Positions 55,304 through 60,008 of a DNA stretch of 64,000 nucleotides are shown one piece after another. The stretch is from Nocardia farcinica (GTDB taxonomy: Bacteria > Actinomycetota > Actinomycetes > Mycobacteriales > Mycobacteriaceae). The stretch is from assembly GCF_001182745.1 (NCBI RefSeq), contig NZ_LN868938.1, forward strand, positions 1,674,001 to 1,738,000, in the 5' to 3' direction. A model generated the notes under the pieces. The model did not search any database. It was given only the letters and a program-made list of their open reading frames with translations, and was not told where the DNA came from. Numbering within the stretch: position 1 is the stretch's first letter; the number at the start of each line of letters is the position of its first letter. The position numbers and the translations under genes were made by a program.

Positions 55304-56698
55304 TCACCCCGCCCGGTCACCGCTGTCGACCAGCAGGTCTCGCAGGGTGGCGAACGCTGCGCGCAGCAGGTCACCGTAATGCCGCGGGTCCGGCATCGCC
55401 GTCTCGTCGGTGCTGAACGAGATGACGACTTCCTCGCCCTGCGAGGTGACCAGGTGGCGCAGGCAGTCGCCGTCCATGGTGGGCAGGACGCCGAAGATCC
55501 TCGTCACCGGCCTGCCGAGGAAGGCGAGGTCGGTGGCGACCGGGGGGACGTTGCTGACGGTGGTGTTCATCAGCGGCACGGTCTCCACGGTGCGGTAGTC
55601 GCGCCGGGCGCGGGCCCAGCCCGCCAGCCGCAACAGCCAGGCCGGTGCGGTCTCCACCCGGGATTCGGCCCGCAGCACGTCCGGATGGACGTTGCGCTCC
55701 TTCTCCCGGGCGGCGGACCGGTGCACGGCGGCCAGCCGGACGAGGGGGTCCGGGACGTCGGTGTGCAGGTCGACATACCGCTGGCACAGCTGGTTCGCCG
55801 AGGTCCAGCCGATACCGCGCACCGACATCGGCACCATCGCGGCCAGGGAACCGGCGGGCAGCTCCCCGCGCTCGGCCAGGTAGTCGCCCAGTGCCAGGGA
55901 GACCGTGGTCAGCAGGAGGTCGTTGAGGGTGACCGGGGTGTCCGAGGCGGCCCTGGCGCGGCGGATGTCGGCGAGCGGGAGCGTGACCAGGTCGAAGACG
56001 AGCGGGCGGTGGACGGGGCGATTGAACCGCGTGGCGGGCCGGGTCGGCAGCGGCGGGGGCAGGCCGGCGGGCTCGGTGGTACGGGTGCGCCGCAGGCCCG
56101 CGGCGAAGCGGGCGGTGCCGACGGTGAGGGCGCTCGCGGTGCGCAGCGCGGCGGACGGAAGCCACGGGGTGCGGTCGAAGGTGGGCGGCGGCGGGAGCGG
56201 GTCCGGGCCGAAGAGCTTCAGTTCCAGTTCCCGGGTGGCGACGCCGTCGGCGGCACCGTGGTGGAACTTCAGGACGACCACGGTGGTCTCGCCCGGCAGG
56301 CCGGGCACGTCGGAGATCAGGTCGAGCACGTGGATCTCCCACGGCGGGCGGGCGAGGTCCATCGGGGTCGCGGCCAGCTCGGCGATCACCCGGCGCGCGT
56401 CGTCCCACGTGCCGCCGGTGCGCAGCGAAACATGCGCGCGCAGATCCGGATCCGGGTGGGGCACCCAGTAGGGCAGGTCCAGGTCGAGCGGGACGCGCCG
56501 AAGGCGGCGATGGAACAGCGGTGCCAGACCGAGGCGGTCGCGCACCCAGTCCAGCACCGCGGCCTCGGTCAGCGGGGTGGTCGCGGTGCAGGCGTAGCAG
56601 CCGACGACGGTGGACGGGTGGGTGTCGGTCTCGTCGTAGACGAACACGGCGTCGCGCGGGTGCAGCCGCTGCGCCGACACACGGGCGGCGTGGCTCAT
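55304..56698 (-). CDS. WS/DGAT family O-acyltransferase
   Basis: 464 aa, start overlapping the esterase stop (ATGA). VVVLKFHHGAADGVATREL holds the HHxxxDG catalytic motif, and NVPPVATDLAFLGRPVT and the C-terminal VVISFSTDETAMPDPRHYG are the conserved late blocks. It transfers acyl groups from acyl-CoA to long-chain alcohols or diacylglycerol, giving wax esters or triacylglycerol. Encoded in tandem with a mycoloyltransferase-like esterase, so it may instead acylate envelope lipid. Confidence 0.88.
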   Translation of the reverse strand: MSHAARVSAQRLHPRDAVFVYDETDTHPSTVVGCYACTATTPLTEAAVLDWVRDRLGLAPLFHRRLRRVPLDLDLPYWVPHPDPDLRAHVSLRTGGTWDDARRVIAELAATPMDLARPPWEIHVLDLISDVPGLPGETTVVVLKFHHGAADGVATRELELKLFGPDPLPPPPTFDRTPWLPSAALRTASALTVGTARFAAGLRRTRTTEPAGLPPPLPTRPATRFNRPVHRPLVFDLVTLPLADIRRARAASDTPVTLNDLLLTTVSLALGDYLAERGELPAGSLAAMVPMSVRGIGWTSANQLCQRYVDLHTDVPDPLVRLAAVHRSAAREKERNVHPDVLRAESRVETAPAWLLRLAGWARARRDYRTVETVPLMNTTVSNVPPVATDLAFLGRPVTRIFGVLPTMDGDCLRHLVTSQGEEVVISFSTDETAMPDPRHYGDLLRAAFATLRDLLVDSGDRAG

Positions 56699-57720
56699 TC
56701 GGCGCCGATCGACCGGGCGATCATCGGCCAGGAGTCGCGCAGGTCGTCCTGCCAGTACCCCCACGAATGGGTGCCGGGGCGCCGGATGTTGTAGGTGATG
56801 TCGGTGCGGCCGAGTTCGGCGGTGCGCTGGGCCAGCCGGGTCGTGCACAGGTTCGTCACCGATTCGATGGCGCCGCCGACCAGTGTCTGGTTGAGCAGCT
56901 GCCGATCGTCGTTGTGCAGCCGCGGGTTGGCGAGGGTGTCGTGCGGGCCGGGCAGGCCGCTGCCGCTGGAGATGTACATCGGTATCGGCGGCAACCGGTG
57001 CGCCTGCAGGTACGGGTCGTGTTCGCGCCAGCCGTCGCCGCCGGTGGGCCCCCACATGTTCTCCGGGTCGCCGCCGCCGAGGCTGATCACCACGGTGACG
57101 AACATCCGGCCGAGCGGGTCGCTGGTCATCGCGCAGCCGCTGTAGGCCGCGACGCTGCGGTAGCGGGTCGGGGCCTGAATGGTGAGGTCGAGCACCGAGC
57201 TGCCCGCCATCGAGATGCCGGCCAGCGCGTTCGCGCCGGTCGCGCCGAAGGTCGCATCGATGACCGGCGGCAGTTCCTCGGTGAGGAAGGTGGTCCACAT
57301 GTTGCGGCCGTTGTTGCCCAGCGTCTCGGCCAGGCCCTCGTCGGCCCGCTCCCAGTCGGTGTAGTAGCTGAACGCGCCCTCCATCGGGATGACGACGTTG
57401 ACGTGTTTGTCGGCGAAGAAGTCCACCGCGTCGGTCTGGCCGAACCAGTTGGCCGCGTCCTCGCCGCCACCGGCCCCGTTGAGCAGGTACAGCGTCGGCG
57501 CGGGGCGGGTGGTGTCGGCGGGCCGCAGCACCTTCACCGCGATCGAGCGCTGCATGGCGGGGGAATACACGGCGAGGTCGACGAGCCGGGCGTCGGCGGG
57601 CGTCGCCGTCACCGCGGGGGCGTCCGGCGTCGCGGTCGCCACGGCACCGGTCAGGGGTGTGCAGGCGAGCGCGAGAACGGTTGCGGCGCAGGCCAGTGCA
57701 CGGTTTCTGCGGGGATCCAT
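56695..57720 (-). CDS. Secreted alpha/beta esterase, antigen 85 / mycoloyltransferase-like
   Basis: 341 aa. Signal peptide (MDPRRNRALACAATVLALAC, cut near AVA-TATP). Mature enzyme: PTLYLLNGAGGGEDAANWF, VVIPMEGAFSYYTDWERADEG, the nucleophile in LAGISMAGSSVLDLTI (Gly-x-Ser-x-Gly), and THSWGYWQDDL with the catalytic His. This is the esterase-D/Ag85 fold. Ag85 enzymes move mycolic acid from trehalose monomycolate to arabinogalactan, trehalose or proteins in the envelope. Lacks the fibronectin-binding part of mycobacterial Ag85. Located after the small peptide genes. Confidence 0.8.
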   Translation of the reverse strand: MDPRRNRALACAATVLALACTPLTGAVATATPDAPAVTATPADARLVDLAVYSPAMQRSIAVKVLRPADTTRPAPTLYLLNGAGGGEDAANWFGQTDAVDFFADKHVNVVIPMEGAFSYYTDWERADEGLAETLGNNGRNMWTTFLTEELPPVIDATFGATGANALAGISMAGSSVLDLTIQAPTRYRSVAAYSGCAMTSDPLGRMFVTVVISLGGGDPENMWGPTGGDGWREHDPYLQAHRLPPIPMYISSGSGLPGPHDTLANPRLHNDDRQLLNQTLVGGAIESVTNLCTTRLAQRTAELGRTDITYNIRRPGTHSWGYWQDDLRDSWPMIARSIGAE

Positions 57721-57746
57721 CGTTCGATCAACCTTCGACCGGAACA

Positions 57747-57778
57747 GTGGAGACGCCCGGCATCGCGGGCGTCTCCAC
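57747..57778 (-). terminator. Strong hairpin between the small peptide genes and the esterase
   Basis: GTGGAGACGCCCG and CGGGCGTCTCCAC are perfect 13-bp arms with a 6-base loop, 13 bp past the stop of the 38-aa peptide gene and 26 bp before the esterase start. A weak T-rich stretch follows. It would favour high peptide expression and limited read-through into the enzyme genes. Confidence 0.75.
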
Positions 57779-57791
57779 GGGTCCTGCGCGC

Positions 57792-57908
57792 CTACTTGCC
57801 CGCTCCCGGCGTGCCGCCGCTCAGGCTGATCAGCGCGTTCACGATCCTGGTGCCGGTCTCGCCGAGGCTGGCGGTGCCCATGCCGAGGATGTCGATCAAA
57901 GATCCCAT
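57792..57908 (-). CDS. 38-aa small peptide, PorA/PorH-like candidate (second of pair)
   Basis: ATG 57908 behind AAGGAGAGAACA. MGSLIDILGMGTASLGETG, then TRIVNALISLSGGTPGAGK. No signal peptide, no Cys, two acidic and two basic residues; the first 30 residues can form an amphipathic helix. Shares MGSLxDxLG with the 40-aa peptide 78 bp upstream. Small signal-less peptides of 40-60 aa that insert in the mycolate outer membrane (PorA/PorH of Corynebacterium) are a precedent. Both are Ser-containing, as O-mycoloylated peptides require. Homology is not shown. Confidence 0.6.
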   Translation of the reverse strand: MGSLIDILGMGTASLGETGTRIVNALISLSGGTPGAGK

Positions 57909-57986
57909 TGTTCTCTCCTTGCGTTGCTGGTTTCAGGAGCCGGCGGACGCCGGACTCGGAGGTCGGATCGCGGAGCCGGCCGGCAC

Positions 57987-58109
57987 TCAGCCGGCGAAGC
58001 CCGTGATGCCCTCGAGCGAGCCGAGGAACACATCCCACAACCCGTCGCCGGCCACGGCGGACCCGAGGGCGGGAATCAAAGCGCCGAGCAGGTCGCTGAG
58101 CGAACCCAT
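57987..58109 (-). CDS. 40-aa small peptide, PorA/PorH-like candidate (first of pair)
   Basis: ATG 58109 behind GAAGGAG. MGSLSDLLGALIPALGSAVA, then GDGLWDVFLGSLEGITGFAG. Four acidic and no basic residues; strongly amphipathic and hydrophobic, with Ser at positions 3, 5, 17 and 31. It has no cleavable signal. Follows a promoter with 17-bp spacing and a nested-hairpin leader. The pair is upstream of a mycoloyltransferase-like esterase, the enzyme class that modifies PorA/PorH. A toxin or signalling peptide is the main alternative. Confidence 0.6.
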   Translation of the reverse strand: MGSLSDLLGALIPALGSAVAGDGLWDVFLGSLEGITGFAG

Positions 58110-58132
58110 AGCGAATCTCCTTCGTCCGTGGT

Positions 58133-58185
58133 ATGCACCAGACCTCACAGCCATCGAGGGGTCGGCTGTGGCGCAATCGGTGCAT
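58133..58185 (-). promoter_or_regulatory. Nested-hairpin 5' leader of the small-peptide operon
   Basis: Outer arms ATGCACC (58133-58139) and GGTGCAT (58179-58185) enclose inner arms CACAGCC (58146-58152) and GGCTGTG (58164-58170). Both pairs are exact 7-base complements. The outer arm extends to about 10 bases with one mismatch. The structure lies between the predicted start site and the first ribosome site. It could stabilise the mRNA or act as a control element. Confidence 0.6.
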
Positions 58186-58206
58186 GCCATCTCGTGTGAC
58201 CGGGGC

Positions 58207-58235
58207 AACATATCAAGCGATCAGTTGGCTGACAA
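58207..58235 (-). promoter_or_regulatory. Promoter of the small-peptide operon
   Basis: On the minus strand TTGTCA (-35) and TATGTT (-10) are separated by exactly 17 bp. Transcription would start near 58200, giving a leader of about 90 nt before ATG 58109. The 475-bp stretch 58110-58584 otherwise holds the leader hairpins, lower-GC sequence and no supported gene. Confidence 0.6.
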
Positions 58236-59328: not shown

Positions 59329-59559
59329 GTGAAGATCAAGACCAGCGTGTACCTCGATCAAGAGCAGGTCGAGCGTCTCAAGCGCGCCGCGGAGGCCGCT
59401 GGTCGTTCGGAAGCCGACCTGATTCGGGAAGGCGTGGACCTGGTCCTGCTACGAACCCCGCGGGCACCGCGAACCCGCGAGTGGCCCTCGTTCGACTCGG
59501 GTGACCCGCGGTTCGCCGTCGACGCCGAGGAACACCTTCGCTCGGCATACGAGCGGTGA
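59329..59559 (+). CDS. Ribbon-helix-helix antitoxin (VapB-like)
   Basis: 76 aa from GTG 59329. KIKTSVYLDQEQVERLKRAAEAAGRSEADLIREGVDL is a ribbon-helix-helix DNA-binding fold. The C-terminal RTREWPSFDSGDPRFAVDAEEHLRSAYER is the toxin-binding tail. No Shine-Dalgarno precedes the start. The stop overlaps the PIN toxin start by 4 bp (GTGA). It neutralises the toxin and represses the operon. Confidence 0.87.
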   Translation: MKIKTSVYLDQEQVERLKRAAEAAGRSEADLIREGVDLVLLRTPRAPRTREWPSFDSGDPRFAVDAEEHLRSAYER

Positions 59560-60008
59560 GCTTCTTCATCGCCGACACCTCCGCGCTGATCGCCGCGTAC
59601 GACAATGCGGCAGCGCAGCAGGAAAAGGTGCAAACTCTACTCGCGAGCTCGGTCGCCGTCGTCTCCCCGCTGGTCCTGGACGAGGTCGATCACTTGCTCG
59701 TCGCCCGCTTCGGAAAGGACCGGCGCGTCGCCGATCTCGTCCTGGACGATCTGCTCACCTCGGCCGAGGAAGGGGCGATCCTCGTCCCTCCCGTCGACCA
59801 CCACGACCTGCGGGTGGCTCAGCGACTCATCCACCAGTTCGGCGGTCTACGCCTCGACCTGGCCGATGCTGTGAACGTGGTGCTCGCTGAACGTTATCTG
59901 ACGAATGCCATCGTGACGCTCGACGAACGTGACTTCCGCGCACTGACCCCGCTCACCCCATCCTTCGCCGCTTTCCACCTGCCCATCCAGGACGGCGAAT
60001 CAGAGTAG
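59556..60008 (+). CDS. PIN domain ribonuclease toxin (VapC-like)
   Basis: 150 aa from the GTG overlapping the antitoxin stop. Metal-binding acids in order: FIADTSALIAAYD (Asp), DEVDHLLVAR (Glu), LDLADAVNVVLA (Asp), VTLDERDFRALTP (Asp). PIN toxins of this type cut tRNA or rRNA and slow growth when freed from the antitoxin. Lies next to a truncated gene, a usual sign of module acquisition. Confidence 0.87.
   Translation: MSFFIADTSALIAAYDNAAAQQEKVQTLLASSVAVVSPLVLDEVDHLLVARFGKDRRVADLVLDDLLTSAEEGAILVPPVDHHDLRVAQRLIHQFGGLRLDLADAVNVVLAERYLTNAIVTLDERDFRALTPLTPSFAAFHLPIQDGESE

Follow-up and report, generated by a model that had tools for sequence, protein, structure and literature searches.

Does Nocardia make outer-membrane peptides that carry a lipid tag, as Corynebacterium does, and encode them side by side with the enzyme that would modify them? 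This question is raised by a locus of Nocardia farcinica (assembly GCF_001182745.1, contig NZ_LN868938.1), located in a stretch of 64,000 nucleotides (forward-strand positions 1,674,001 to 1,738,000), hereafter called the window. Two very short open reading frames, p1 and p2, are found there upstream of genes for an esterase-family mycoloyltransferase and for a divergent WS/DGAT-like acyltransferase. In Corynebacterium glutamicum, the peptides PorA and PorH are described as helical, 45 and 57 amino acids long, encoded in tandem and devoid of signal peptides (PMC11927696, PMC12632848). The protein O-mycoloyltransferase of this species is Cmt1 (PMC11066868), and MytC by itself mycoloylates PorA in vitro (PMC11927696). 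In this study, we show that both Nocardia peptide genes are real, conserved as a pair and linked to the mycoloyltransferase gene. The locus is a good candidate for a source of PorA/PorH-like lipidated peptides with adjacent substrate and enzyme genes, the lipidation itself being putative. Its parts are the following (positions of the window).

58230 to 58235, minus strand: -35-like hexamer TTGTCA of a promoter-like element, read from the sequence and from the consensus of 51 regions upstream of p1
58207 to 58212, minus strand: -10-like hexamer TATGTT, ending 97 nucleotides ahead of the p1 start
58117 to 58122, minus strand: AAGGAG, ribosome site of p1, read from the sequence; an AGGAG-like site also precedes the p1 frames in the loci of relatives
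57987 to 58109, minus strand: p1, signal-less helical peptide of 40 amino acids (MGSLSDLLG...), from frames, conservation, substitution rates, alignment and predicted structure
57913 to 57920, minus strand: AAGGAGAG, ribosome site of p2, read from the sequence
57792 to 57908, minus strand: p2, signal-less peptide of 38 amino acids (MGSLIDILG...), from frames, conservation, substitution rates and alignment
56695 to 57720, minus strand: mycoloyltransferase of MytC type by sequence (esterase family, PF00756), 341 amino acids, with the Ser/Glu/His triad kept and a loop segment of 38 residues
55304 to 56698, minus strand: divergent WS/DGAT-like acyltransferase, 464 amino acids, with HHGAADG at 146, from domain matches and tree

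On the minus strand the gene order is p1, p2, mycoloyltransferase and WS/DGAT, with gaps of 78 nucleotides between p1 and p2 and of 71 nucleotides between p2 and the enzyme; the stop of the enzyme gene and the WS/DGAT start overlap in ATGA. An earlier note on this DNA had described two signal-less frames of 40 and 38 amino acids, both beginning MGSLxDxLG and each with a strong ribosome site, and the sequence bears this out: AAGGAG lies shortly 5' of the ATG of both. A longer start of p1, giving a frame of 74 amino acids, was rejected since conservation starts at MGS, which has its own ribosome site. The two hexamers of the promoter-like element are separated by a spacer of 17 nucleotides (58235 to 58207, minus strand). 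Of the 51 regions upstream of p1, 31 contain a looser pattern, CTTGnn-N15-20-TAYGTT, which occurs 43 times in total on both strands of the same loci (1.23 Mb). Aligned p1 leaders also hold conserved GTCAC and GTGAC blocks in inverted orientation 3' of the -10-like box (about 58130 to 58205, minus strand). They are possibly an operator or an RNA hairpin and are less clear in the window itself.

Of 148 Nocardia genomes, 52 contain both peptides, always in one order, on one strand and with the key residues kept. The p1 search matched 74 genomes, 52 of them at an E-value (E) of 1.8e-5 or better. Among the other 22 (E 0.028 to 1), one genome (G114), with weaker matches to both p1 and p2, was kept upon confirmation of the pair by reading its locus, and 21 were considered noise. 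The p2 search matched 58 genomes, 51 of them at 2.1e-4 or better, and six at E 0.02 to 0.1 were taken as noise. The genome searches limited scoring to a set number of candidates per genome (14 in the enzyme search, 19 in the p1 and p2 profile searches over the family described below, 11 in the WS/DGAT search), so that very weak relatives could be missed. The median ratio of nonsynonymous to synonymous substitution rates (dN/dS), computed in two groups, was 0.202 and 0.090 for p1 and 0.197 and 0.144 for p2, and in the larger groups third codon positions take 61% (p1) and 58% (p2) of the substitutions. Purifying selection, ribosome sites and the recurring promoter-like element establish both frames as real genes. 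The earlier note had proposed conservation of pair, order and synonymous-site bias as the check on its idea; the pair is kept in 52 of 148 Nocardia genomes and recurs in other genera, well past close strains, with median dN/dS of 0.090 to 0.202. Its remark that the genes are too short for normal gene calling was right in part, as 18 p1 clusters do exist among 5.8 billion proteins, a few of them as "hypothetical protein" in Nocardia.

Concerning the linkage of the peptides to the mycoloyltransferase, the enzyme search of the Nocardia genomes separated 55 genomes, all with E no higher than 7.6e-140, from paralogs beginning, after a sharp gap, at 1.7e-103. In 52 of these 55 the enzyme gene is directly preceded by the peptide pair in the same orientation, and p1, p2 and enzyme share one strand in 52/52 loci. 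Among the 93 genomes without an enzyme ortholog, a p1-like frame was found in one (G001). Co-occurrence of peptides and enzyme gave 4e-35 in Fisher's test, a count of related genomes and hence not of independent events. The ribosome site of the lone G001 frame (L118) is poor, and the stretch read around it contains no enzyme; the frame was counted as peptide without enzyme and is probably a relic. A second set, of named organisms, comprised 79 loci from the best 80 enzyme matches among those listed. Both peptides were found at most 1.9 kb upstream in 45 of the 47 best of these (L185-L230, L234), the exceptions being L225 without peptides and L203 (Prescottella defluvii) with a broken p1 frame, and MGS frames were seen upstream of none of the other 32 loci. 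In the N. farcinica genome itself, 14 esterase-family genes are present and only that of the window is preceded by such peptides.

Of 401 genomes of the family, the p1 profile matched 54 and the p2 profile 56 at E 0.05, spread over 8 and 9 of 31 genera respectively, chance matches included. Outside Nocardia, tandem matches were found in four genera: Prescottella (g10), Rhodococcus oryzae/spelaei (g22), the R. erythropolis group (g23) and Speluncibacter (g25). The pair is present in 21 of the 28 loci examined (L133-L147, L149-L154). For 17 of them this is based on both frames, for L133, L135 and L142 on the p2 frame plus a p1 profile match, and for L150 on profile matches only; in the remaining seven, the MGS peptides are of other kinds or the matches weak. 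In 20 of the 21 pair loci the next gene, with the same orientation, encodes a mycoloyltransferase; the contig of L147 breaks off before this point. The downstream enzyme is of the window's type in nine loci (57-62%), and pieces of this type are found in two (L141, L145). In R. erythropolis, a second mycoloyltransferase of the 42% type adjoins. Prescottella p1 is mostly 63-65 amino acids long. Nine profile matches in a Corynebacterium genome (G421) were set aside as fragments of 17-22 residues. Beside the Corynebacterium mytC-like genes of L171-L173 no convincing MGS peptide was found; L172 has one GTG frame (MGSLERF..., 60 amino acids), not seen in L171.

Further genera (L155-L160) carry other MGS-type peptides of 42-63 amino acids beside WS/DGAT or mycoloyltransferase genes, and in L157 and L158 pairs of 63-amino-acid peptides adjoin the WS/DGAT gene. 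These observations suggest a wider family of such peptides. In the Prescottella loci L142 and L148, the flanks contain by eye a prenyl diphosphate synthase, a thioredoxin-domain protein and a mycothiol conjugate amidase. Among the same neighbours, L148 retains a single weak MGS peptide and lacks the enzyme, as if the cassette had been lost; it was not counted as a pair.

The enzyme of the window matches PF00756 at E 1.8e-32. Its closest solved structures are Cmt1/MytC (E 2e-69), PS1/MytA (2e-39) and Ag85A (3e-25), where 4H18 is apo MytC (PMC11927696). A tree of 68 sequences places the group of the window's enzyme as sister to the MytC-containing group (96/86). The latter includes a second Corynebacterium paralog, and the tree is a test of grouping rather than of strict one-to-one orthology; three other enzymes of the N. 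farcinica genome join next (94/83). The Ser/Glu/His triad and two cysteines are conserved. Antigen 85 and MytA belong to the same fold family and share the triad; they differ from the window's enzyme in a shorter loop segment and in the absence of the cysteine pair. The known acceptors of antigen 85 and MytA are sugars. An extended loop is said to mark MytC (PMC5310785), and the loop segment counts 38 residues in the window's enzyme versus 43 in MytC, 30 in MytA and 23 in Ag85C; the segment was picked from the mobile 271-311 region given in PMC11927696, and its equivalence among the enzymes is our reading. MytC orthologues of other genera have been tried in C. glutamicum, where some work, "not all active" (PMC5310785). 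Judged by sequence, the window's enzyme is thus MytC-type and not the sole candidate in its genome. The link of the peptides to an antigen-85-like esterase, as proposed in the earlier note, is supported as a tight link to a MytC-type mycoloyltransferase. The further claim of one operon holds for p1, p2 and the enzyme, which keep one strand throughout; the WS/DGAT gene is co-directional in only 19 of 50 loci.

Neither peptide has a Pfam match at E 1. Both are free of cysteine and of a basic n-region, the absence of a signal peptide being judged from the sequence. A cross-genus alignment of 19 rows shows M1, G2, S3, S17, D22, L24, F28, G30 and S31 as invariant in p1, and one of 17 rows shows M1, G2, S3, L26, S30, G31, G32 and T33 as invariant in p2, with S30 within LSGGT. 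The polar invariant residues are mainly serine and glycine. For p1, helices are predicted at 3-22 and 25-39 (predicted local distance difference test score 80, predicted template modelling score 0.44). Mapped mycoloylation sites of C. glutamicum are serines, less often threonines, amid serine, glycine and alanine, and follow no strict motif (PMC11066868); Ser15 of PorA lies in the stretch that joins two modelled helices (PMC11927696). Such a context would be matched by the LSGG of p2 and the GS motifs of p1.

We consider it most probable, at roughly 0.55, that the locus is an analogous lipopeptide cassette, in which the MytC-type enzyme mycoloylates invariant serines of the signal-less helical pair, and the pair assembles in the mycomembrane. 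The promoter upstream of p1 would drive a common transcript, from which the two small, Ser/Gly-rich peptides are expressed and the exported mycoloyltransferase is made next, with the divergent WS/DGAT-like acyltransferase adjoining. The peptides would then pass the inner membrane by some route, as PorA, PorH and ProtX do. Outside, the linked enzyme would transfer the mycoloyl group from trehalose monomycolate to the invariant serines; our guess for the acceptors is Ser17 or Ser31 of p1 and Ser30 of p2. The pair may finally form a two-component complex in the mycomembrane, perhaps a small channel, and the WS/DGAT-like enzyme would be a dedicated part of the cassette. In its tandem tiny helical peptides without signal peptides and its MytC-type enzyme, the locus resembles the system of PorA, PorH and ProtX with MytC (Cmt1). 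It differs in that the Nocardia peptide genes adjoin the enzyme gene, whereas porA and porH are placed between groEL2 and ppk2 (PMC3792995), and in its WS/DGAT-like gene, none of which was found in C. glutamicum.

Several observations speak against this reading. Three Nocardia genomes (G045, G113, G128) have the enzyme and no peptides, and 93 of 148 have no enzyme ortholog. Close enzyme relatives (L231-L233, 59-62%) are without peptides upstream. Nine of the 21 non-Nocardia loci have next to the peptides just a mycoloyltransferase of more distant type (37-43%), which is placed elsewhere in the tree. Four other paralogs of the N. farcinica genome also have the loop segment of 38 residues, so that other enzymes could do the same job. 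Moreover, comparison of profiles (hhalign) gave E 0.25 for p2 with PorA and E 0.13 for p1 with PorH, with the LSG triplet alone aligning, i.e. no homology to known mycoloylated peptides.

A variant of the cassette includes double acylation. Here, the WS/DGAT-like enzyme would O-acylate one invariant serine in the cytoplasm with acyl-CoA and thereby aid membrane entry, upon which the MytC-type enzyme would mycoloylate another serine outside. We give this variant a rather low probability. If true, it would amount to a genetically complete peptide-lipidation and export cassette of separate origin from PorA/PorH, with the WS/DGAT fold newly acting on a peptide.

In a rival reading, likewise of rather low probability, p1 and p2 would be helices at cytoplasmic lipid surfaces or in the inner membrane and would serve the WS/DGAT-like enzyme, the mycoloyltransferase having a separate envelope role. 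The absence of signal peptides would suit such a role, and the association of the WS/DGAT with the peptides, drawn in the earlier note, is a real one. An ortholog at E 1e-100 or better is present in 49 of 148 Nocardia genomes, all 49 of them peptide-bearing, and absent from the three enzyme-only genomes. It is found at the peptide locus in 48 of the 49; G130 has it on another contig, since the one with the peptides breaks off at this point. The peptides of G114 are without a WS/DGAT ortholog, and G015 and G028 have WS/DGAT pieces only, at contig ends. Outside Nocardia, a relative of 41-48% is found in 12 of the 21 pair loci, and in L156-L158 other MGS peptides lie by such a WS/DGAT with no mycoloyltransferase directly adjoining. 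Strand and order, however, are kept with the mycoloyltransferase (52/52) and not with the WS/DGAT, which is co-directional with the peptides in 19 and opposite in 31 of 50 loci. Furthermore, in the R. erythropolis group (eight loci) the only WS/DGAT is one of 27-28% at a distance of 3-4.5 kb, and no WS/DGAT was found at the loci of L136 and G114. The protein of the window scores above the curated cut-off for both domains (PF03007/PF06974, TIGR02946) and has the HHxxxDG motif in common with other WS/DGAT acyltransferases, from which it differs by its peptide linkage and its divergence: it reaches 102 bits to PF03007 versus 258-293 for four other members in the genome. In a tree of 34 sequences, the cassette WS/DGATs of several genera stand apart from ordinary ones, with long branches that make rooting unsafe. 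The family was found in 0 of 14 control genomes, C. glutamicum included.

It is rather unlikely that p1 and p2 are distant PorA/PorH homologs changed beyond recognition, i.e. the same system by common ancestry. Size class, tandem order and the lack of signal peptide and cysteine are the same, and seven of ten Corynebacterium loci read show porH-porA tandems of similar spacing. With the p2 profile, eight of ten PorA-like sequences each outscore 89% or more of their 200 shuffles, which, as these sequences are related, does not make eight independent tests. The PorA and PorH sequences compared agree with the site numbers of the cited papers, and that of PorA matched Corynebacterium genomes. The profile E-values given above, with just LSG aligning, argue against homology, as do the 21 of 200 shuffles that beat C. 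glutamicum PorA and the reported placement of porA/porH between groEL2 and ppk2. A by-eye resemblance of the PorA N-terminus to a Prescottella p2 (MGSVYDALG) was dropped for the same shuffle result. The homology to PorA/PorH that the earlier note had offered as its own inference thus found no support in the profile comparisons. The cassette may work like PorA/PorH and MytC; by sequence its peptides are not members of the PorA or PorH family.

Less likely still, the peptides could be secreted bioactive peptides (bacteriocin- or cytolysin-like) or a small membrane toxin modified by the acyltransferases. They are small hydrophobic helices, and in 12 of the 52 Nocardia loci one or both peptides are amplified, to three pairs at most. 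Strong conservation and a vertical-looking spread with one enzyme speak against this. The parts of the loci that were read, though not searched systematically for such partners, showed no immunity gene, transporter or antisense partner. Regulatory leader or chance open reading frames, brought to mind by short frames near the 5' end of the unit, are rejected given low dN/dS, conserved length and C-termini, and several tandem pairs.

Known channels of Nocardia and Rhodococcus are MspA-type (PMC9233653). They too belong to these genera and form channels in the cell wall, in some cases as pairs (NfpA/NfpB in Nocardia); at about 20 kDa, with signal peptides and beta structure as described in PMC9233653, they differ from peptides of 38-40 amino acids. 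The peptide genes of the window have a transcription regulator and the enzyme genes as neighbours, and not groEL2 and ppk2. On the plus strand, at 59329-59559 and 59556-60008, two overlapping small genes resemble by eye a VapBC-type antitoxin and PIN-domain toxin.

Protein O-mycoloylation is described for Corynebacterium; for the rest of the order, its conservation "is not demonstrated" (PMC5310785), and mycobacteria are among those in which it is not shown (PMC11066868). MytC orthologues have been reported in Nocardia and Rhodococcus, and the literature searched, as far as its texts were accessible, names none of their natural substrates. It contained neither these peptides nor mycoloylated proteins outside Corynebacterium; subscription papers were mostly outside its coverage, so that absence from print is unproven. 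The cassette sets two candidate substrates beside a MytC-type enzyme, in organisms including R. erythropolis. As the candidate substrates adjoin the enzyme gene, mycoloylation outside Corynebacterium becomes directly testable. The cassette also bears on how signal-less peptides exit the cell, and the divergent WS/DGAT group gains a possible peptide-linked role. The conserved gene set of Nocardia and some of its relatives suggests that outer-membrane peptides with a lipid tag, of the kind seen in Corynebacterium, may also occur outside that genus.

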